NCBI RefSeq assembly: GCF_014647195.1
Contig: NZ_BMOS01000020.1
Coordinates: 1-64,000, forward strand
Length of the DNA: 64,000 nt
Direction of reading: 5' to 3'
Source: Oceanobacillus indicireducens
GTDB lineage: Bacteria; Bacillota; Bacilli; Bacillales; Amphibacillaceae
Shown: one piece after another, positions 44,574-54,334 of the stretch
How the letters are laid out: each line of letters opens with the position of its first letter
How positions within the stretch are numbered: the first letter of the stretch is position 1
Translations under genes and position numbers: made by a program
The notes under the pieces: generated by a model
What the model saw: only the letters and a program-made list of their open reading frames with translations
The model's database searches: none
Told to the model about the DNA's origin: nothing

Positions 44574-45554
44574 TTACATACTTCGCACAAGCAAAGTCGC
44601 CATCACTTCTTGGATAATCGACTTATATTCACCATCAGGAAGCTTTTTTAACTGTTTAATTGCTTTATCTGTATATTTTTCAGCGAGTTGCTCTGCTTTT
44701 TCCAAGCCGTGATAGTGATCAACTAAGTTCATTACTTCTTCGAGATCATGATCAGTCATGGCCTCTCCTTTTGCTAGAAGGTCATGAAATACGGAAGGCT
44801 TATTCTGAAGAACATAAATGAGTGGTAAATTATATATGCCTTGGCGAATGTCTGACATTACTGGTTTACCGAGTGCTGAAAAATCAGACCGATAATCAAG
44901 AATATCGTCCTTAATTTGAAATGCCATACCAATATTATGGCCTATATTCCTGGAAATCATGGTCACTCTGCGCGAAGACTGACTCAATACCGCTCCTGAG
45001 TAGAAACTGATTGCAAATAGTTGAGCTGTTTTCCCAGCAATTCTAGTTAAATAGTCTTTAATTGATACGTTAAATTGATAACGGGAATTTAATTGTTCGA
45101 GCTCTCCACTTAGAATTTTTTCCATTCCACGAGCATTGAATTCTAGATCGGAAAGGGATGTTGCATGATTTGCTAAAATTGTAAAACAAACACTGAACAA
45201 ATAATCACCAGCATAGATGGCAATTTTATTTCCTTCATCGGCATGTATAGTCCGAACACCTCGACGATGACTGGCTTCATCAATGACATCATCATGAATA
45301 AGTGTTGCAAGATGCAAACATTCGATTGCTGCTGAAACTGCGATGGCATCCTCTTTTTTATAGGTTGGGCCAATATTCGAGCATAATAATGTAAAGGCGG
45401 GACGGAGCAACTTTCCGCCTGAATAAACCATTTCTTTGATTCTCTCTTCTACAGCCTTATTACGAACATGAATCCGTGAATCTATTAAAGAAAGCACATC
45501 GGCTAAATCTTGTTTCAACTCTGGATAACTATCCCACATCGCATGTACTTTCAT
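44574..45554 (-). CDS. dmkB: Heptaprenyl-type polyprenyl diphosphate synthase
   Basis: Trans-prenyl diphosphate synthase, 326 residues, making the isoprenoid tail precursor. The first aspartate-rich motif is HDDVIDEA (about 86), the second QIKDDILDYRSD (about 218), and the N-terminal GGKLLRPAF contacts the substrate. AGGAGGT precedes the ATG. Its place beside eetB, eetA and ndh2 matches dmkB (lmo2641) of the Listeria extracellular electron transfer locus. There it supplies the tail for a dedicated demethylmenaquinone. A general menaquinone role cannot be excluded by sequence alone. Confidence 0.9.
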   Translation of the reverse strand: MKVHAMWDSYPELKQDLADVLSLIDSRIHVRNKAVEERIKEMVYSGGKLLRPAFTLLCSNIGPTYKKEDAIAVSAAIECLHLATLIHDDVIDEASHRRGVRTIHADEGNKIAIYAGDYLFSVCFTILANHATSLSDLEFNARGMEKILSGELEQLNSRYQFNVSIKDYLTRIAGKTAQLFAISFYSGAVLSQSSRRVTMISRNIGHNIGMAFQIKDDILDYRSDFSALGKPVMSDIRQGIYNLPLIYVLQNKPSVFHDLLAKGEAMTDHDLEEVMNLVDHYHGLEKAEQLAEKYTDKAIKQLKKLPDGEYKSIIQEVMATLLVRSM

Positions 45555-45557
45555 TAT

Positions 45558-46166
45558 TTATACCTCCTCTTGACTCTGATAGAGAATAGATGATTGCTGT
45601 AAAACTTCATCCTTTATTGTTTTTTCTTTTTTCGTCGTCTCCATTTTTTGCAAATACATATAATAATCAAGCTTTTCTACGTGCTGTAATAAATAATTTG
45701 CGATGATTCCGATTGCGATTCCCGCTAAAATTCCAATGAAAGACAACACTGGTAAATATAGCAATACCGTCCATGTTTGGGCGATGAAACTTGCTACAAC
45801 CAATTGGCCGACGTTATGTAAAATTGCTCCCGCTGCACTCACACCGATTAAGCTAACACGGCTCGGTCCGAGTTTTTTCACAAGCCACATCCCGATAAAG
45901 CTGATTATGGCTCCAGCTGAGCTATACATAAACGTAGAAATGGTGCCACCAAGTAAAGCTGTTAATACAACACGGATACCGACTACTTTTGCAGCATCTT
46001 TTACAGGAAGGGTATAAAGCGCCATAATTGTAATAATATTGGCAAGTCCGAGTTTTGCCCCTGGTGCAAAAGCAAAAGGAAAAGGGATTGCTCGCTCCAC
46101 AATTCCGATAATGACGGCTTGTGCAGCTAATAATGAAATATAGACGAGACGCTCGTTTCGTGTCAT
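45558..46166 (-). CDS. eetB: EetB-like membrane protein (Gx transporter / HepS-type)
   Basis: Six-helix membrane protein of the family annotated as Gx transporter or heptaprenyl diphosphate synthase component I, which resembles ECF substrate-binding subunits. Key stretches are IPFPFAFAPGAKLGLANIITI, GTISTFMYSSAGAIISF and GAILHNVGQLVVASFI. ATG at 46166 follows AAAGGGGGAAA and is preferred over an upstream GTG overlapping eetA. In Listeria the equivalent gene lies between eetA and dmkB in the electron transfer locus and is needed for its function, by an unclear mechanism. Confidence 0.85.
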   Translation of the reverse strand: MTRNERLVYISLLAAQAVIIGIVERAIPFPFAFAPGAKLGLANIITIMALYTLPVKDAAKVVGIRVVLTALLGGTISTFMYSSAGAIISFIGMWLVKKLGPSRVSLIGVSAAGAILHNVGQLVVASFIAQTWTVLLYLPVLSFIGILAGIAIGIIANYLLQHVEKLDYYMYLQKMETTKKEKTIKDEVLQQSSILYQSQEEV

Positions 46167-46198
46167 TCCCTTTCCCCCTTTACTTTTAAAATATTTCC

Positions 46199-46624
46199 TC
46201 ACGAACTGATAATGATGTCGCTCACTGGTTCGTCACTCATCGTTTGAATTTCGATAATCATCCGATGAGGTAGACAAACAATTGTTTCACCTGGTTTACT
46301 GATAAAACCTTGATGGACATCAATCTGATCTGGGCAATTCGCTGATTTAACCCTTATTTCTTCATCAACAACTTCAACTGTATTGTAATTCGAGTCAGAA
46401 GAGAGAATATCAAAGACTTCAACACCTTCATTGCCTGTAAGCGTGACTCGTTGCACTTCTTCATTATCTACAGAAATAACCGCCACGCTTACAGATTCCC
46501 CATCGGCATATTTTGTCTGTATGAAAGTAAAAATAACGAAGGGAAGAAAAGATAAGATGACGAGTGCAATCACGATAATAATATCCCAACGTTTAACCAT
46601 CCGGTATAGCTCTTTCAATTCCAT
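46199..46624 (-). CDS. eetA: EetA-like NusG domain II membrane protein
   Basis: A 141-residue protein with one N-terminal membrane helix (about 15-37) followed by an external NusG_II-type beta domain (about 50-140; NTVEVVDEEIRVKSANCPDQI, ISKPGETIVCLPHRMIIEI). AAGGGGAGAG precedes the ATG. Proteins of this type accompany Gx transporters in flavin-based electron transfer loci, and the order ndh2-eetA-eetB-dmkB here is the same as in Listeria. Two cysteines (SANCPDQI and IVCLPH) are typical of the domain. Confidence 0.87.
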   Translation of the reverse strand: MELKELYRMVKRWDIIIVIALVILSFLPFVIFTFIQTKYADGESVSVAVISVDNEEVQRVTLTGNEGVEVFDILSSDSNYNTVEVVDEEIRVKSANCPDQIDVHQGFISKPGETIVCLPHRMIIEIQTMSDEPVSDIIISS

Positions 46625-46668
46625 CTCTCCCCTTTTACAGGCATGATTAAAATTTACTTCACAGTTTT

Positions 46669-48561
46669 TTATTCTTGATGATCCCTATAGATGCCCCGTT
46701 CTTTTCCATACCACCAGTTACCGACTTTCTCTTGTAAAAACGGCACAACCCAGTAGTCCAGTCCAAACGTTCTGCCGGAACCATTCATTAGAGCAATTGA
46801 TGCAGGAAGGGCCCAAACCTTATCCCAACCGAGCATGGCAGTTAGAGTGAACATGACTAAGAAACCGGAACTTGCTAAGTTTGCAAGCCATGTAAATAGA
46901 CCAAATAGAATCGCCAATCCCATCGCTAGTTCAATAAACACCATCATTTTTTGCATAAAGATAGCCATTTCTGGCGTTGGAAGCATGATTTTCATGATCC
47001 ATTCGAACCAACTAGGCATACTACTTAAGATTGGTGTTGCCCAGTCCCCGGAAGCAGCTTCACTGGCAGCGGCTGTTGCTTCAGTCGCCCCTGATGTTGC
47101 GGTTTGCAGCCATTCAAACGGCATTTTCACGGAGTCGGAAAGAATCCATGAATCTTCACCGAGTCCTTTGAACAGTAATGGCACATTTGACCAGCTGGAT
47201 GTCGCTTTTTCCCAAGTTCCTTCACCCCATAATTTTGTAGCGCCCTCTACAATCCAGAATCCCCCAACAAAGATACGTAGCGGTATGCTCCATAACACGT
47301 TTCCATACCGATTGACAAGATTCCGGAATACATTTCGTTTGTCTTTTGAGTGGAAAAACTCATCGAATATATAGTGGAACATATAGTATCCACTACCGAT
47401 ACCAAATAAATATACGAGGTCCACCATGTACTTAATAAAGTTCGCCAACCAACCGCTGACACGCATCCCCATCAAGTTGGCCACACCATATCTAGTGCCG
47501 ATGGACACCATAAAACCGTGGTACTTTCCTTTATAAGCTTTCTTCTCTCCACCGCTGATTTCACTGATGATTGCATTGGCTGCTGTCCCCGCAGTTAGTT
47601 CCGCTGCCTCGACAATTTGTGGTGTCGGTGTGCCTTCTTCTTCCTCATAGTAAGCTAAATCCCCAACGACATAGACATCATCTAGTCCTTCCGCTTCCAT
47701 ATATTCATTTACTTTTAAGCGTCCAGCTCTAGCGCTTTCCATATTGTAATTTTCCGCATCCGAATTCGCCTTTATTCCTGCCGTCCAAATCAATGTATGA
47801 GTTGGAATGACTTCGCCTGATTTTAAAACGATCTCTTCAGCTTTCACTTCAACGATAGGGGAATTCACTAGAATATTGATACCTTTTTTCTTCATATAGC
47901 GCTCCGCTTTCTCAGCGCTTTTTCGGTCCAACATATTCAAAATCGTAGGAGCCGCTTCGACGAGGTTTAAAGTAATATCTGATTCGTCGAGTTTATTATC
48001 TTTTGCCAACCGTTTTCTCCATTCCATTAGTTCCCCGATCATTTCAACACCAGTGAAGCCGGAACCACAGACAGTAAAGGTCAATAGAGCGCGACGTACT
48101 TCCAGATCGTGTTCTTTGGAGGCCCGGGCTACCGACTTTTCAATGTGCTGACGTAGTTTGACGGCATCTTCAACAGACCAAAGTGTAAACCCATGCTCAC
48201 TTACTCCTGGCGTACCGAAGTCGTTCGGCTCGGCACCCATACCTAAGATTAAATAATCGTAATTGAAAGTACCTTGTTTTGTAGTAATCACTTTATTTTT
48301 ATGATCAACATGTTCAACAACATCCGTTACAAGTTTTACCTTCGTGCGGTTAAACAGTCGTCGCAGGTCAAATTGAACAGCATCTGGCTCAACCCGGTGC
48401 GCCGCGACTTCATGCAATGAAGTCATCATGGTGTGATACGAATCTCGATCAATTAACGTTATCGATACAGAGGGATCCTTTTTATATTTCTTTGCTAGTT
48501 TCTTAGCTGCATGAACACCAGCATAACCGGCACCGATAATCACAATATTTTTTTCTGCCAT
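46669..48561 (-). CDS. ndh2: Type II NADH dehydrogenase fused to DoxX-like membrane domain (Ndh2)
   Basis: Feeds electrons from NADH into the quinone used for extracellular electron transfer. Residues 1-400 are a classic NDH-2: N-terminal FAD site VIIGAGYAGVHAAKKLAKK, NADH site TFTVCGSGFTGVEMIGEL, and the second FAD site VYVVGDLAYYEEE. The C-terminal 200 residues add about four membrane helices with DoxX/TQO-like features (RIFVGGFWIVEGATKLWG, FIELAMGLAILFGLFTWLAN), absent in respiratory NDH-2. AAGGAGTG precedes the ATG. It heads the minus arm (ndh2-eetA-eetB-dmkB) from a promoter at about 48629-48657 with a Rex-like site. Confidence 0.9.
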   Translation of the reverse strand: MAEKNIVIIGAGYAGVHAAKKLAKKYKKDPSVSITLIDRDSYHTMMTSLHEVAAHRVEPDAVQFDLRRLFNRTKVKLVTDVVEHVDHKNKVITTKQGTFNYDYLILGMGAEPNDFGTPGVSEHGFTLWSVEDAVKLRQHIEKSVARASKEHDLEVRRALLTFTVCGSGFTGVEMIGELMEWRKRLAKDNKLDESDITLNLVEAAPTILNMLDRKSAEKAERYMKKKGINILVNSPIVEVKAEEIVLKSGEVIPTHTLIWTAGIKANSDAENYNMESARAGRLKVNEYMEAEGLDDVYVVGDLAYYEEEEGTPTPQIVEAAELTAGTAANAIISEISGGEKKAYKGKYHGFMVSIGTRYGVANLMGMRVSGWLANFIKYMVDLVYLFGIGSGYYMFHYIFDEFFHSKDKRNVFRNLVNRYGNVLWSIPLRIFVGGFWIVEGATKLWGEGTWEKATSSWSNVPLLFKGLGEDSWILSDSVKMPFEWLQTATSGATEATAAASEAASGDWATPILSSMPSWFEWIMKIMLPTPEMAIFMQKMMVFIELAMGLAILFGLFTWLANLASSGFLVMFTLTAMLGWDKVWALPASIALMNGSGRTFGLDYWVVPFLQEKVGNWWYGKERGIYRDHQE

Positions 48562-48612
48562 TGAAAATCACTCCTTAATTAAGCAAATATGAATTGATAT
48601 TTAGTACATGTA

Positions 48613-48630
48613 ATGTTCACCCATTCACAA
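48613..48630 (-). promoter_or_regulatory. Rex-like operator at the ndh2 promoter
   Basis: The minus strand reads TTGTGAATGGGTGAACAT. The left half matches the Rex consensus TTGTGAA-N4-TTCACAA exactly; the right half is weak. It begins inside the -10 box of the proposed ndh2 promoter. Confidence 0.4.
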
Positions 48631-48657
48631 TATAACGCAATAATTTTTTCTTGTCTA
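48629..48657 (-). promoter_or_regulatory. Proposed ndh2 promoter
   Basis: On the minus strand TAGACA (48652-48657) and TATATT (48629-48634) are separated by 17 bases, a good sigmaA-type match about 70 bases before the ndh2 start codon. Confidence 0.55.
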
Positions 48658-48760
48658 TAGCGTTCACACAATAGTCATTTATCATATTTTTTACCATTGG
48701 TACGTTGTAAATGTTAATATAATACTGATTAAGGTTAATCATTCTTCCTTACAAAAATAG

Positions 48761-48789
48761 TTTACATTACAACATTCGCATGCTAATAT
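48761..48789 (+). promoter_or_regulatory. Proposed pplA promoter
   Basis: TTTACA (48761-48766) and TAATAT (48784-48789) are separated by 17 bases, about 55 bases before the pplA start. It should drive pplA-fmnB-dmkA and perhaps the ECF genes. Confidence 0.6.
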
Positions 48790-48799
48790 AAGGGTGAAC

Positions 48800-48817
48800 A
48801 TGTGATTCTATTCACAA
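48800..48817. promoter_or_regulatory. Rex-like operator at the pplA promoter
   Basis: ATGTGATTCTATTCACAA matches TTGTGAA-N4-TTCACAA at all but two positions. It covers the expected transcription start just after the pplA -10 box, the usual place for a repressor. Confidence 0.55.
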
Positions 48818-48841
48818 TAAAATAAGTAAAGGATGATTCAG

Positions 48842-49762
48842 ATGAAGTGGAAAAATTTCATAGGCGTATCAGTTTTAGGGTTTGCATTAACCTTCTCATT
48901 AGCTGCTTGCGGAGGGGAGGATACACCAAGTAAAGATAATGAGGCAGATCAGGACGCAACTACTGAGGAAACAGAAGAAACGGTAGCTAAAGAAGTCGTA
49001 GCAGGAGCACCTCTACAAGACGGGACCTATTCATTATATGAAACTGAAATAGGGGAAACTGGCTGGAAAGTCGTTATGGAAATGACAGTAGAAGATGGAG
49101 AAATCACTTCTTCAGATTTTAATTATGAAAATGAAGACGGTGAGTTAAAGACAGAGGATGAGGAATACCAGGAAATGATGGCGGAAGAGTCCGGTACAGG
49201 CCCTCAAGATTTCATCCCTGAACTGAATGATACTCTCGTGGCCAATCAAAATGCTTCAGAAGTGGAAGTAGTTACTGGTGCAACAAGTTCATCTCATACA
49301 TTCATCAACTATGCTCAACAGTTGATCCAAGCAGCACAGTCTGGTGACACAACACCAATCGAAATTGAAAATACAAATGAGCTTGTCGATGGTGAATACA
49401 GTCTTTCAGAGAAAAACATTGACCAAACCGGCTGGAGAACGGAACTTACCATTACAGTTGAGGACGGAAAAATCACTGAATCCGATTTTGTTTATCTCAA
49501 TGAAGATGGAGAGTTAAAAATCGATGATGATGAGTACCAAGAACAAATGGCGGATATTTCCGGCACAGGCCCTCAAGATTTTATTCCTGAATTGAACGAG
49601 GCACTTGTTGAGACACAAGATGCTAATGCCGTAGAGGTTGTTTCTGGTGCGACATCTTCAAGCAAGTCTTTCCAAATGTACGCTGCACAATTAATCAATG
49701 CAGCCCAAAAAGGGGACACAACACCAATCGAAATTGACAATATCGTTTATGCGGAAGAATAA
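48842..49762 (+). CDS. pplA: PplA-like flavinylated lipoprotein with two FMN-binding repeats
   Basis: Surface lipoprotein that carries covalently bound FMN and passes electrons to outside acceptors. The signal peptide ends in LAAC (Cys23 counted from this start). Two tandem repeats of about 120 residues follow an acidic linker. Each starts with DGTYSL/DGEYSL and W-K/R-x-E/V, contains SGTGPQDFIPELN, and ends with the flavinylation motif (TGATSSS, modified Thr148; SGATSSS, modified Thr271). ATG at 48842 is preferred because AAAGGATG lies nine bases upstream. The flavin transferase gene fmnB follows directly. Confidence 0.93.
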   Translation: MKWKNFIGVSVLGFALTFSLAACGGEDTPSKDNEADQDATTEETEETVAKEVVAGAPLQDGTYSLYETEIGETGWKVVMEMTVEDGEITSSDFNYENEDGELKTEDEEYQEMMAEESGTGPQDFIPELNDTLVANQNASEVEVVTGATSSSHTFINYAQQLIQAAQSGDTTPIEIENTNELVDGEYSLSEKNIDQTGWRTELTITVEDGKITESDFVYLNEDGELKIDDDEYQEQMADISGTGPQDFIPELNEALVETQDANAVEVVSGATSSSKSFQMYAAQLINAAQKGDTTPIEIDNIVYAEE

Positions 49763-49850
49763 AGAGAACATATAAGTTACTTGATGGGAAATTAGAAAAA
49801 CGATTTAGCTTCTAATTTCCCTCCTCAAGTTTAATGGAAAGTGGTGAGGA

Positions 49851-50903
49851 ATGATGAAACACTTTAAATGGTTTTGGGTTAGTTTACTCATACTGCTTGT
49901 CGGGTGCGGCGTGTCAGCCGAAACAGAAGGCGTGACAGTAGAGCCGCATAGTAAGACGGATTTTCTAATGGGAACAGTCGTAAGCGTCAAAATTTACGAT
50001 GAAGACAAAGGGGACGTGCTTGAACCGGTTTTTAACCAAATTGAGCAGTTAGCCGATGAGCTTTCTTCCAACGAGGAAGGTTCTGTTATCGATGAAATTA
50101 ATCAACTTGCCGGGTCAGCACCAGTTGAAGTTCCAAAAACGACCTATGACCTTATAAAGGAAGGGAAACGTTATTCAAAATTAGCAGATGGCTCATTTGA
50201 TATTACGGTTGGTCCATTGACAAATCTTTGGCGCATCGGTTTTCCGGATGCAAGAAAACCAGATCAATCTGAAATTGATCAAGTATTACCGCTAATCAAC
50301 TATCAATCTGTTCAACTTGATGAACAGGAGAGAACAGTGTTTCTCATGCAGGATCAGATGCGGCTAGACTTAGGCTCCATTGCGAAAGGTTTTATAACGG
50401 ATCAAATTGCGAAAACATTAAAAGAACATGATGTATCTTCAGCAGTTATTGATCTTGGTGGAAACATTTATGTTTTAGGAGATAGTCCCCAATCGGGGGA
50501 TACATGGACGATTGGCATTCAGGATCCTTTTCAAGCACGAGGTGAAACCGTCGGAGTTATCAAACAAAAGGATAAAACGGTTGTGACTTCCGGTATTTAT
50601 GAACGGAAATTGGAAGTAGATGGACAAATCTATCATCACTTATTAAATCCAAAAACCGGCTACCCATACGACAATGATATTGCAGGTGTTTCCGTCATAA
50701 CCGATTCTTCTACAGATGGTGATGCGTTATCAACGATTTTATTCACTAAAGGATTGAAAGACGGGTTATACTTTGCGGAAAATATGAGTGGTGTCGAAGC
50801 AATATTCATCAGTCGCGATAAAGAAGTATATACGACATCCGGTTTGAAAGGAAATTTTGAGCTAACTAATGATCAATTTAAATTAGTTGAATGGAGAGGA
50901 TAA
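49851..50903 (+). CDS. fmnB: FAD:protein FMN transferase (ApbE/FmnB)
   Basis: Attaches FMN from FAD to Thr of [S/T]GA[T/S] motifs in exported proteins, here the two sites in the neighbouring lipoprotein. It is itself a lipoprotein (LLILLVGC lipobox). Motifs: DFLMGTVVSVKIY at the start of the domain, the YSKLADGSFDITVGPL stretch, LDLGSIAKGFITDQIA, VIDLGGNIYVLG, HHLLNPKTGYPYDND and DGDALSTILFTKG, which include the FAD- and magnesium-binding residues. The length of 350 is normal. The ribosome site GTGAGGA is close to paired ATG codons at 49851 and 49854. The dmkA gene starts four bases after it. Confidence 0.95.
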   Translation: MMKHFKWFWVSLLILLVGCGVSAETEGVTVEPHSKTDFLMGTVVSVKIYDEDKGDVLEPVFNQIEQLADELSSNEEGSVIDEINQLAGSAPVEVPKTTYDLIKEGKRYSKLADGSFDITVGPLTNLWRIGFPDARKPDQSEIDQVLPLINYQSVQLDEQERTVFLMQDQMRLDLGSIAKGFITDQIAKTLKEHDVSSAVIDLGGNIYVLGDSPQSGDTWTIGIQDPFQARGETVGVIKQKDKTVVTSGIYERKLEVDGQIYHHLLNPKTGYPYDNDIAGVSVITDSSTDGDALSTILFTKGLKDGLYFAENMSGVEAIFISRDKEVYTTSGLKGNFELTNDQFKLVEWRG

Positions 50904-50906
50904 GCC

Positions 50907-51851
50907 ATGTCAATCCGCACATTTTTAAATTTAGTAGAAATCAAAACAAAAATTGCCAGTTTATTCCCCTTCCTACTTGGACTTTTATTTGTATTATACC
51001 GTTATGGAACTTTAGATTATATCAATACAATTTTATTTTTTAGCAGCATGCTCATTTTTGATTTGACAGCAACGGCAATTAATCAATATATGGACTATCG
51101 GAAAGCAACTAGCGATAGCTACCGGAAAGAAAGGAATATTATTGGACAAGCAGCTATTCCCGAGCGGCTTGTGATTACGACTATCATCTCCATGCTTGCA
51201 ATTTCCTCAGCACTTGGGATCTGGCTTGTCTCCCAAACTGATTTATTGGTTTTATTCATCGGGATGCTTTGCTTTGCAGTCGGCATCTTTTATACTTTCG
51301 GTCCGATCCCTTTATCCCGTATGCCACTCGGTGAAGTGTTCTCAGGTGTCACAATGGGCTTCGGAATTCTTTTCCTCACCGTATATGTCAATGCTTTTGA
51401 CAAGGGGATTGCGAATATTTCTTGGCAGGGAAGTTCCTTTCTTTTGAAGTTTGATATCCTCTTATTACTAGAAATTGGCCTGGTTTCCTTACCATGCGTT
51501 CTTACCATTGCTAATTTAATGCTCGCCAATAACATTTGTGATTTAGAGGAAGATATCGCTAATCACCGTTATACGCTTCCTTTCTACATCGGTAAAAAAT
51601 ATGCAATTTGGCTGTTTAACCTATTGTACATCGTTACATTTATCGCAATTTCTGTAGCAGCATTGCTCGGTATCCTGCCAAAAGCACTTCTGCTTTCACT
51701 TCTAATGATAAAACCGGTTTACAGTCATGTTGCTGCGTTTAATCAGAAACAAAGCAAAACGGAAACATTCCCACTCGCCGGAAAGAACTTAGTTTTAGTA
51801 AATGGGACTATCGCCATCTTAATGTTAATTGTGATTGCTATACCGGCTTGA
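50907..51851 (+). CDS. dmkA: UbiA-family prenyltransferase (DmkA, MenA-like)
   Basis: Membrane enzyme that joins a polyprenyl tail to 1,4-dihydroxy-2-naphthoate, giving demethylmenaquinone. Eight or nine helices are predicted in 314 residues. The two aspartate-rich motifs are NQYMDYRKATSDSYRKERN (about 55-75) and NNICDLEEDIANHRYTLP (about 209-226). In Listeria the paralogue in this locus makes a separate quinone for extracellular electron transfer. It probably uses the product of dmkB on the opposite arm. Start after GGAGAGGATAAGCC, four bases downstream of fmnB. Confidence 0.9.
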   Translation: MSIRTFLNLVEIKTKIASLFPFLLGLLFVLYRYGTLDYINTILFFSSMLIFDLTATAINQYMDYRKATSDSYRKERNIIGQAAIPERLVITTIISMLAISSALGIWLVSQTDLLVLFIGMLCFAVGIFYTFGPIPLSRMPLGEVFSGVTMGFGILFLTVYVNAFDKGIANISWQGSSFLLKFDILLLLEIGLVSLPCVLTIANLMLANNICDLEEDIANHRYTLPFYIGKKYAIWLFNLLYIVTFIAISVAALLGILPKALLLSLLMIKPVYSHVAAFNQKQSKTETFPLAGKNLVLVNGTIAILMLIVIAIPA

Positions 51852-51882
51852 TATCGCAAGCTTGCTCAAGGAGGGATGAAAT

Positions 51883-52692
51883 ATGGCACCGATCATCGAA
51901 GTAAACAATTTGACCTATCGATATGATCTCCGAACAGAGACGAAGGCCCTTCTCTCTGTATCGTTCACTGTTCATCGCGGTGAATGGTTCGCGATTATCG
52001 GCAACAATGGATCTGGAAAATCAACACTTGCCCAATTGCTCACCGGGCTACTCGAACCCCAGCAAGGGTCCATTTTTATCGCTGATATGGAGATGACGGA
52101 GAAATCGAAATGGGAAATTAGGAACCGGATTGGGGTCGTTTTTCAAAATCCGGACAATCAATTTATAGGATCAACTGTACAAGATGATGTTGCTTTTGGA
52201 TTGGAAAACTTGAATATGGACTATAAAGAAATGAAAAAACGAGTTTATGAAGCGCTGAAAATGGTTGGCATGTTTGAATATCGGCTGTATGATCCTTCCC
52301 ATCTCTCCGGGGGACAGAAGCAGCGTGTAGCTATCGCAGGTGCTTTAGCCATGAAGCCAGACGTATTAATATTAGATGAAGCCTTTGTTATGCTTGATCC
52401 AAGAAGCAGGCGTGAACTTCTGGAGACTATCCATGAGTTAAAAGTGAGCGCCGATTTAACGGTCGTTTCCATTACCCATGATATGACCGAAGTGGAGGCA
52501 GCTGATAGAGTCGTTGTCCTAGATAACGGTCAGGTTACGAATATTGGTAAACCAAGGGAAATTTTTACCCAAGAAAAGGAGTTGACCCCACCTCTTGGTG
52601 AAAAACTTCGACGTGCATTAGCGAAACGCGGGGCAAACGTACCGCAATCCTATATGTCACGGGAAGAAGTGATGTGTTGGCTATGGAAATAA
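51883..52692 (+). CDS. ecfA1: Energy-coupling factor transporter ATPase 1
   Basis: ABC ATPase of an ECF-type vitamin importer, 269 residues. Walker A GNNGSGKST (about 38-46), Q-loop VFQNPDNQF, signature HLSGGQKQR, Walker B VLILDEAF and switch His in SITHD. The acidic residue after Walker B is followed by AFVMLDP rather than the usual PTxGLDP. AAGGAGGG precedes the ATG. It forms the coupling module with the next two genes. The locus position corresponds to the ECF component of the Listeria extracellular electron transfer locus, which works with a flavin-specific S subunit encoded elsewhere. Confidence 0.92.
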   Translation: MAPIIEVNNLTYRYDLRTETKALLSVSFTVHRGEWFAIIGNNGSGKSTLAQLLTGLLEPQQGSIFIADMEMTEKSKWEIRNRIGVVFQNPDNQFIGSTVQDDVAFGLENLNMDYKEMKKRVYEALKMVGMFEYRLYDPSHLSGGQKQRVAIAGALAMKPDVLILDEAFVMLDPRSRRELLETIHELKVSADLTVVSITHDMTEVEAADRVVVLDNGQVTNIGKPREIFTQEKELTPPLGEKLRRALAKRGANVPQSYMSREEVMCWLWK

Positions 52693-53540
52693 AGATGGAA
52701 GGAGTCTCCGCTGATTACGTAATTGGACCAATTCGCAACTCGCTCGTTCTACAATCCATTGATTTACAAATAGAGTCCGGTTCGTATTCTGCTATCGTCG
52801 GACATACAGGTGCTGGAAAATCAAGCTTACTGAAAACGATCAACGGACTCTTGCTCCCGACTGCAGGAAAAATTGAAGTTGGCCAGGACATCATTAAACA
52901 AAAGAATAATAAACAAGCTCTAAAAAACATTCGAAAAAAAGTCGGGATGGTCTTTCAATTTCCAGAGGCGCAATTGTTTGCTGAAACGGTTGAAAAAGAC
53001 ATTTGCTTTGGTCCACTAAACTTCGGTGTACCGCTAAAACAGGCACAACAGATTGCAAAAGAAGTCATGCAACTTGTCGGACTCCCCCTTCATCTCTTGA
53101 ATAAATCTCCACATTCATTATCCGGTGGACAAAAACGCCGCGTTGCCATTGCAGGAATACTAGCAATGGAACCAGAAATTCTCGTACTAGATGAACCTGG
53201 TGCCGGCTTGGACCCAAAAGGAAAAAATGAGATCATGAGGTTAATTAAGTCACTGCACCAGGAGCGTAATTTGACCACTATCCTCGTAACCCATGATATG
53301 GATGACGTTGTGCACTATGCGGACAAGATCATTGTGATGGAAAATGGACGCATTGTAAGGAATGGCGATTTGCGATCCGTTTTTTCAGATCGTCTAGCGA
53401 TTAAAAAGTGGCATCTTGATCTACCTGAAGCGTATCAATTTCAGTTGGAAATTGAAGAAAGAACGGGCATGGAACTACCACAGATTTGCTTTACTGTTGA
53501 TGAACTTGCTGATGCACTGATGGAGGTGGGCCTCGCGTGA
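52674..53540 (+). CDS. ecfA2: Energy-coupling factor transporter ATPase 2
   Basis: Second ABC ATPase of the ECF module, 288 residues from a GTG start with GGGAAG upstream; an ATG at 52683 is the alternative. It overlaps the end of ecfA1 by 19 bases, so translation is coupled. Walker A GHTGAGKSS, VFQFPEAQLF after the Q-loop (typical of EcfA2), signature SLSGGQKRR, Walker B ILVLDEPGAGLDP and switch LVTHD are all intact. It pairs with ecfA1 and binds EcfT through its coupling groove. Confidence 0.93.
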   Translation: MLAMEIKMEGVSADYVIGPIRNSLVLQSIDLQIESGSYSAIVGHTGAGKSSLLKTINGLLLPTAGKIEVGQDIIKQKNNKQALKNIRKKVGMVFQFPEAQLFAETVEKDICFGPLNFGVPLKQAQQIAKEVMQLVGLPLHLLNKSPHSLSGGQKRRVAIAGILAMEPEILVLDEPGAGLDPKGKNEIMRLIKSLHQERNLTTILVTHDMDDVVHYADKIIVMENGRIVRNGDLRSVFSDRLAIKKWHLDLPEAYQFQLEIEERTGMELPQICFTVDELADALMEVGLA

Positions 53541-54334
53541 ATAAATTATCGTTAGGCAGGTATGTACCCGGGGATTCAATTCTTCACCAACTGGACCCGC
53601 GGGCAAAGCTTGTCAGTGGTTTTTACTTTATAATCGTCCTATTTATCGCAAACAATTGGCAAACTTATCTATTGCTTTGGCTGTTTACATTAGGTGTCAT
53701 GCGGTTATCAAAGGTTCATTTGTACACTTATTTTAGAGGGGTCCGCCCTTTGATCTGGCTCATCCTGTTTACTGTGGTGCTACAGATGTTATTTACGGCA
53801 GGAGGAACAATCTATGTCGAATGGGGTCCAATCAGAATATCAGAATTTGGCCTCATTAATGGGGTCTATATCTTTTGCCGGTTTGTAATGATTATATTCA
53901 TCTCCACTGCGATTACATTAACAACGAAACCAATTGATTTGACTGATGGAATTGATTCATTGCTAGGCCCTTTACGAAAGCTCAACATCCCAGTCGATGA
54001 AATATCTCTGATGTTATCTATTTCATTACGGTTTATCCCCAACCTTCTAGATGAAACCCAGAGAGTCATGGACGCCCAACGAGCCCGGGGAACTGAATTT
54101 GGTGAAGGCTCGCTCGTCCAACAAATGAAGACTCTCGTTCCAATCTTTCTCCCGCTCTTTACAAATTCGTTAAACCGGGCAGAGGAATTGGCGAATGTGA
54201 TGGAAGTCAAAGGATATCAATCTGGCATAAAACGATCATCATTCCGTAAACTCAGATGGAAAACATGTGACACTATTACCCTATGCGTAATGGCTGCACT
54301 AACCATAGGGCTCATCCTATTACGCCTTAATTAA
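53537..54334 (+). CDS. ecfT: Energy-coupling factor transporter membrane subunit EcfT
   Basis: Membrane scaffold linking the two ATPases to a substrate-binding S subunit. Its 265 residues carry about five helices and the two coupling motifs, AQRARGTEFG (about 182) and the second, MEVKGYQSG (about 224). The N-terminus LGRYVPGDSILHQLDPRAK is typical. It overlaps ecfA2 by four bases. No S subunit lies in the window; riboflavin or another flavin precursor is the likely cargo from locus context, though EetB-like proteins have also been proposed as partners. A bidirectional terminator follows. Confidence 0.92.
   Translation: MNKLSLGRYVPGDSILHQLDPRAKLVSGFYFIIVLFIANNWQTYLLLWLFTLGVMRLSKVHLYTYFRGVRPLIWLILFTVVLQMLFTAGGTIYVEWGPIRISEFGLINGVYIFCRFVMIIFISTAITLTTKPIDLTDGIDSLLGPLRKLNIPVDEISLMLSISLRFIPNLLDETQRVMDAQRARGTEFGEGSLVQQMKTLVPIFLPLFTNSLNRAEELANVMEVKGYQSGIKRSSFRKLRWKTCDTITLCVMAALTIGLILLRLN

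Follow-up and report, generated by a model that had tools for sequence, protein, structure and literature searches.

The window analysed here, a stretch of 64,000 nucleotides from Oceanobacillus indicireducens (genome of 3.87 Mb in 89 contigs), carries at positions 44574–54334 a divergent cluster of ten genes that a preliminary description, made from the sequence, had assigned to flavin-based extracellular electron transfer (EET) as known from Listeria monocytogenes. All ten open reading frames (ORFs) were found intact and in place, four on the minus strand and six on the plus strand, and are listed below with their shared promoter region and motifs (ECF, energy-coupling factor; FAD, flavin adenine dinucleotide; FMN, flavin mononucleotide; NADH, reduced nicotinamide adenine dinucleotide; DHNA, 1,4-dihydroxy-2-naphthoate).

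44574..45554, minus: dmkB, polyprenyl diphosphate synthase (PF00348, 4.8e-60; 49–54 % identity to DmkB of Listeria loci)
45558..46202, minus: eetB, ECF-S-like FAD-binding subunit of a flavin exporter, function by homology (PF07456, 4.4e-49; Listeria orthologue in PMC9973259)
46199..46624, minus: eetA, NusG_II-domain protein (PF07009, 5.5e-31)
46669..48561, minus: ndh2, type II NADH dehydrogenase with a C-terminal membrane domain (PF07992, 3.1e-43)
47083..47103, minus: TATSGAT, flavinylation-like motif of doubtful significance in a predicted extracytosolic loop of Ndh2
48562..48832, no strand: divergent promoter region of both operons, read from the sequence
48801..48816, no strand: Rex/Fnr-type palindrome TGTGATTCTATTCACA, the sole exact TGTGA-N6-TCACA within the 64 kb
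48833..49762 (likely start 48842), plus: pplA, lipoprotein with two FMN_bind domains (NF041941, 390 bits, cut-off 325; PF04205 in two stretches)
49274..49285, plus: first flavinylation motif of PplA, TGAT, acceptor Thr151 of the 309-aa ORF
49643..49654, plus: second flavinylation motif of PplA, SGAT, acceptor Thr274
49851..50903, plus: fmnB, extracytosolic ApbE-type FMN transferase (PF02424, 2.7e-87)
50907..51851, plus: dmkA, MenA-like DHNA prenyltransferase (NF009926, 387 bits, cut-off 316; UbiA in Pfam)
51883..52692, plus: ecfA1, ECF ATPase (TIGR04520, 349 bits, cut-off 315; ABC ATPase in Pfam)
52674..53540, plus: ecfA2, ECF ATPase (TIGR04521, 354 bits, cut-off 330; ABC ATPase in Pfam)
53537..54334, plus: ecfT/fmnA, ECF-T subunit (PF02361, CbiQ/ECF-T, 1.4e-43; 55–60 % identity to Listeria FmnA in loci with an unbroken hit)

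The identities of the genes, the completeness of the set and its assignment to the Listeria system were borne out by Pfam, NCBIfam and tblastn, and this is very probably a complete Listeria-type flavin-based EET locus. Curated NCBIfam cut-offs were passed by DmkA, both ECF ATPases and PplA, the last with a model named ‘extracellular electron transfer flavoprotein PplA’. When the genes were compared one by one with those of Listeria cossartiae (L109) by tblastn, the eight shared genes were 48–69 % identical in their best segments (EetB 69, Ndh2 68, DmkA 58, FmnA 58, FmnB 55, EetA 50, DmkB 50 and PplA 48 %). The proposed match to lmo2634–lmo2641 held for these eight genes, whereas the two ECF ATPases are extra relative to Listeria. 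The eight-gene Listeria cluster (PMC9973259) has ndh2, eetA, eetB, dmkB, pplA, fmnB, dmkA and fmnA in the same divergent layout, and the window differs from it in the two ATPase genes inserted between dmkA and ecfT. The divergent layout had been thought to depart from that of Listeria, which proved mistaken: all 19 Listeria loci fetched (L. monocytogenes itself not among them) are divergent. In them pplA, fmnB, dmkA and fmnA share a strand, opposite to ndh2, eetA, eetB and dmkB, although fmnB gave no match in L102 and L103, nor eetA in L099. Neither ecfA1 nor ecfA2 was found inside any of these 19 loci at an identity of at least 40 %.

The loci of relatives were located by scanning contigs with an Ndh2 alignment, a query with PplA alone having given no matches. 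From 398 relatives the 80 best were kept, giving 79 loci, so rarer architectures are undersampled. In the Bacillaceae and Sporolactobacillaceae, ecfA1–ecfA2–ecfT lie in the fmnB operon in 40 of 41 loci, the 41st (L083) ending at a contig edge; dmkA is missing from four of those 40 (L074, L075, L080 and L122; Lederbergia-type). Fourteen loci from elsewhere in the class (L030–L043) gave no ECF orthologues at an identity of at least 40 %, and 13 of them carry pplA; in the locus without a visible pplA, L040, only ndh2 and dmkB were matched, near a contig end. Since eetB stands next to ECF-A genes in 796 genomes (PMC9973259), the arrangement in the window is known in outline. Its gene content, ECF ATPases included, is shared by the pplA-bearing loci of Caldibacillus thermoamylovorans, Bacillus kwashiorkori, Lederbergia and Sporolactobacillus, and the eight-gene tree groups it with B. 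kwashiorkori, Caldibacillus and four Sporolactobacillus (Shimodaira–Hasegawa-like approximate likelihood ratio test, SH-aLRT, 98). It differs from those loci in its host, Oceanobacillus, whose other EET loci found are without pplA. Caldibacillus thermoamylovorans and B. kwashiorkori also carry an extra pplA–ndh2 pair behind dmkB (L071:14681–17623 and L079:11029–14053), which is not present in the window.

Of the 79 loci, 63 have the palindromic box, with at most one mismatch, among the 400 bp preceding ndh2, whereas outside this region the loci contain 0.016 occurrences per 400 bp. Rex, which senses NADH, and Fnr, which responds to oxygen, are equally good putative regulators for such a box. 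As the box lies in the divergent region shared by the two EET operons, their expression probably responds to an excess of NADH or a shortage of oxygen. The informative form of the box is the exact TGTGA-N6-TCACA; the Rex consensus with up to three mismatches showed no enrichment across the window (10 occurrences against 7.3 expected), and a CcpA-type pattern had a single match there, away from the EET locus. Gene families, orthology, motifs, conserved order and conserved box are established, and the locus is a sound example of an already known system, not a new kind.

The true start of pplA is likely the ATG at 48842 rather than 48833, with TAAAGGA upstream at 48827–48833. The two flavinylation sites of PplA read E-V-V-T-G-A-T and E-V-V-S-G-A-T, with one [ST]GAT in each FMN_bind stretch, and Listeria PplA likewise has two sites, T143 and T265 (PMC8906456). 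The catalytic triad of Listeria FmnB, S257/H273/D301 (PMC8906456), is matched in the window, at a constant shift of ten positions, by S247, H263 and D291, residues whose conservation reaches at least 95 % among 52 FmnB sequences (21 pplA-positive and 31 pplA-negative). As no FMN_bind protein other than PplA was found in the genome, PplA is the obvious target of FmnB.

In the proposed mechanism, electrons would pass from NADH through Ndh2 to a dedicated demethylmenaquinone made by DmkA and DmkB. FAD would be exported by EetB, as the S subunit, with EcfA1, EcfA2 and EcfT/FmnA, and cleaved by FmnB, which would attach FMN to the two threonines of PplA. Flavinylated PplA or free flavin would then reduce acceptors outside the cell, and from the gene set the reduction of one of them, iron(III), by this strain is plausible.

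Several observations weigh against this interpretation. Both PplA motifs start with Glu instead of Asp; in a model protein, an Asp-to-Ala change at the motif had minor effects only (PMC12052999). The genome encodes another ApbE besides FmnB. EetA has no demonstrated role, its deletion in Listeria being without phenotype (PMC9973259). Finally, L. plantarum without PplA gave equal current (PMC8837199). The second ApbE (G000:C26:41193–42014; L143:5489–8096) adjoins an FMN reductase/PAS protein with two SGAT motifs at its C-terminus, and pairs of ApbE with an FMN_red substrate have already been published (PMC11334425).

The direction of the flavin step and the destination of the electrons could be read otherwise. 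The preliminary description had spoken of flavin-type import, and most ECF transporters do import; PF07456 is named ‘Heptaprenyl diphosphate synthase component I’, so that EetB could by its Pfam name belong to prenyl diphosphate synthesis beside a flavin importer, and FmnA can replace EcfT in RibU-dependent import (PMC9973259), so that the T subunit may in part serve import. Against an importer, Listeria EetB binds FAD, flavinylation of PplA requires EetB, FmnA and the ECF ATPases unless FAD is supplied externally, these proteins provide FAD outside the membrane, and the role of RibU in uptake is not replaced by EetB (PMC9973259). An importer is thus unlikely, and import gives way to export in the description of this module. 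A second respiratory branch, from NADH through quinone to membrane oxidases with PplA as a minor side path, would agree with the occurrence of Ndh2 and quinone genes in respiration at large and with the anode current of L. plantarum, independent as it is of PplA (PMC8837199). However, the gene set recurs as one unit across relatives, and Ndh2, the protein examined in this respect, did not prove closer to ordinary respiratory paralogues, an outcome that the preliminary description had envisaged. It combines Pyr_redox_2 with a weak DoxX match in Pfam and is over its full length 76 % identical to that of Oceanobacillus halophilus and 66–69 % to those of Listeria, whereas the Ndh2-like paralogues of its own genome are 29–31 % identical and cover at most residues 3–408 of 630. 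FmnB, EetB and PplA are not known to have a role in ordinary respiration, and such a branch is very improbable.

The extracytosolic loop of Ndh2 might also be flavinylated by FmnB, PplA then being one of two covalent flavin carriers, as 41 of 54 Ndh2 sequences, including that of the window with its TATSGAT, have [ST]GA[ST] in the loop that separates predicted membrane segments. However, Ala, Ser and Gly abound in this loop, the leading Asp occurs in 6 of the 54 sequences, and 21 of 22 pplA-positive loci retain the motif versus 20 of 32 pplA-negative ones, the opposite of what would be expected of a substitute for PplA. A second carrier of this kind is highly unlikely, and Ndh2 is likewise disfavoured as the missing FmnB target of loci without pplA, where its motif is not preferentially kept. 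PplA, flavinylated by FmnB with FAD exported by EetB and its ECF partners, is preferred as the carrier in the window.

EetB was found in 6 of 28 Oceanobacillus genomes, that of the window included. The other five (G008; G018, O. halophilus; G019, O. oncorhynchi; G020, O. neutriphilus; G434, O. sojae) have the same locus with 340–460 bp between ndh2 and fmnB, which leaves no room for pplA, and FMN_bind was not found in G008, G018, G019 and G020 nor in O. sojae (G471). Across the 47 genomes of the fetched loci, FMN_bind was found in 16/16 pplA-positive versus 9/31 pplA-negative genomes. Loci without pplA (other Oceanobacillus, Aquibacillus, Paraliobacillus, Amphibacillus and others; Lactococcus in PMC8837199) share the remaining genes with the window, although some, unlike it, are also without dmkB or eetA. 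Lactococcus with such loci gave current but, in the conditions of that study, reduced iron slightly or not at all (PMC8837199). As FmnB is conserved in such loci, another target or task is expected for it there; the FmnB residues separating pplA-positive from pplA-negative loci showed mild shifts only, and the catalytic ones are all kept. The second ApbE with its FMN reductase was rejected as an explanation of these loci, such pairs being already published. In Alkalibacterium and Lacticigenium (L123, L126, L128 and L131), only dmkA–ndh2–dmkB stand together; fmnB, eetB and pplA had no match in the fetched flanks, while an ApbE elsewhere and the lipoprotein described below are present.

A search for D-x-x-[ST]-G-A-[ST] near the loci without pplA revealed a family of beta-helical lipoproteins that are unrelated to PplA, carried by the pplA-less genomes examined (Lactococcus not singled out among them) and not by the window. 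The first two members lie directly behind eetB in Texcoconibacillus (L116:13064–14035, plus strand) and near the locus of Litchfieldia (L086:15230–16201, minus strand). Further members are the following:

L129:4361–4927, plus: lipoprotein of the family in O. neutriphilus
L082:4354–4905, plus: lipoprotein of the family in O. oncorhynchi

These proteins consist of a lipobox, an acidic linker, the motif and then one or two copies of one domain, which AlphaFold2 predicts as a right-handed beta-helix (mean predicted local distance difference test scores, pLDDT, of 85.0 and 83.5, with most residues above 90 and the linker below 50). The best VIA-align matches of the models were to beta-helix proteins, with Z 11.7 (3.3 Å over 122 residues) and 9.8 (2.5 Å over 107), where the usual best for models without a clear match is Z 7 to 8; they indicate a predicted shape, not a function. 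Foldseek with the two-domain model gave nothing in the PDB at E ≤0.001, and a PDB sequence search gave nothing convincing. No known flavinylated domain, FMN_bind or other, was detected: at E 0.01, Pfam returned only Bactofilin, weakly, in 11 of 19 members (best 8.6e-5). Lipoprotein models of NCBIfam matched the family weakly, down to 3e-6, and among them the PplA model matched 6 of the 19 (best E 0.0032); we attribute these matches to resemblance in the signal peptide and linker.

Among 75 genome entries, the family was present in 36 of 36 that combine an EET Ndh2 with a locus devoid of pplA. These stand for 35 genomes, O. sojae being entered twice (G434 and G471), and four of the 36, from Alkalibacterium and Lacticigenium, keep only dmkA–ndh2–dmkB together. 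It was found in none of 17 EET-positive entries with pplA, the window's included, and in none of 22 Oceanobacillus entries without EetB. Of 30 named Bacillaceae loci without pplA, 18 have the lipoprotein within the fetched 10 kb, often adjoining dmkB or ecfT, a 19th (L076) has a fragment of it, and in the other 11 the copy is on a different contig from the best ApbE. An ApbE was present in all 47 lipoprotein-bearing genomes searched and in the five Oceanobacillus entries without pplA.

Many of the lipoprotein genes also carry the box. TGTGA-N6-TCACA with at most one mismatch was found before 44 of 67 distinct genes: 31/44 in the Bacillaceae/Carnobacteriaceae set, 23 of them exact, and 13/23, none exact, in a Paenibacillaceae-like set with G419. 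Among control ORFs it preceded 10 of 776 (2 exact), the control being every ATG ORF of at least 200 aa, chance ORFs included and not matched for intergenic composition; two other controls (125/1660 random stretches and 33/381 ORFs) were discarded, as they still held EET or lipoprotein promoters. Before lipoprotein copies lying off the contig of the best ApbE and readable in the fetched loci, the box was found in 19 of 24 cases, 13 of them exact.

The lipoprotein may be an undescribed substitute carrier for PplA, its flavinylation being putative. More broadly, the carrier of Bacillaceae EET might be exchangeable, with PplA replaced by a beta-helical lipoprotein that FmnB would flavinylate behind its lipid anchor and that would be co-expressed through the shared Rex/Fnr-type box, the Oceanobacillus of the window being the PplA-bearing exception of its genus; this is a tentative proposal, held with somewhat more doubt than conviction. 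A wider survey of 398 class members, with at most 8 candidates scored per genome, gave matches to the lipoprotein in 19 genomes, or 17 once short weak hits in G098 and G369 were set aside: 16 of one family (f30), read as Paenibacillaceae-like, and G419. All 16 had a long Ndh2 match at 37–39 % identity, one with an internal stop, and all 17 had an ApbE, which supports a link of the lipoprotein to EET.

Other results weigh against the substitution. The canonical Gly of the motif is present in 13 of 67 distinct lipoproteins; 61 have the relaxed form D..[ST][GTASV]A[ST], and six, three of them two-domain copies from Halolactibacillus, lack even that. Canonical members, with DAVTGAT, occur in Texcoconibacillus and Litchfieldia, whereas O. 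oncorhynchi has a member of the T-T-A-S type. In a model protein, a Gly-to-Ala change roughly halved flavinylation (PMC12052999). A PplA-like gene (23–26 % identity) adjoins ndh2 in all five Paenibacillaceae-like genomes examined, of the 16, and G419 has both a PplA-like gene and the lipoprotein, so mutual exclusion of the two carriers is not general. In the seven f30 regions read, which come from six genomes, the lipoprotein was not near EET genes. On the Ndh2 tree, each label changes four times in the exchange of pplA and lipoprotein, but the well-supported branches provide only two independent pairs, a number that does not allow a sign test; on the eight-gene tree, the exchange rests on two changes. 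In the Paenibacillaceae-like loci L252, L253, L254, L256 and L257, a divergent EET-like cluster was seen with pplA-like (23–26 %), ndh2 (35–37 %) and dmkB (30–33 %) genes, and G202 additionally has fmnB–eetA–eetB–ecf genes nearby (L255).

Evidence on a horizontal gain of the locus by the Oceanobacillus of the window is mixed. The eight-gene tree places it with pplA-positive loci. In approximately unbiased (AU) tests, a single clade of the window and the other Oceanobacillus was rejected without Gracilibacillus (p 6e-7) and not with it (p 0.175), and a single clade of all pplA-positive loci was not rejected (p 0.56; quick tree).

With this locus, an Oceanobacillus joins the organisms that carry flavin-based EET genes as a full set, with the direction of the ECF step corrected, and among the EET loci found in the genus, the PplA of the window is the exception. 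The flavinylated proteins named in the available text of PMC11334425 (FMN-bind, NqrB/RnfD, DUF2271, Flavodoxin_4 and FMN_red) do not include a beta-helical lipoprotein, and no published account of such a lipoprotein in EET was found, as judged from titles and the beginnings of abstracts. For published loci that lack pplA and yet give current, the lipoprotein is a concrete and easily tested candidate for the carrier of electrons and, if this is true, it would be a new fold for flavinylated carriers.

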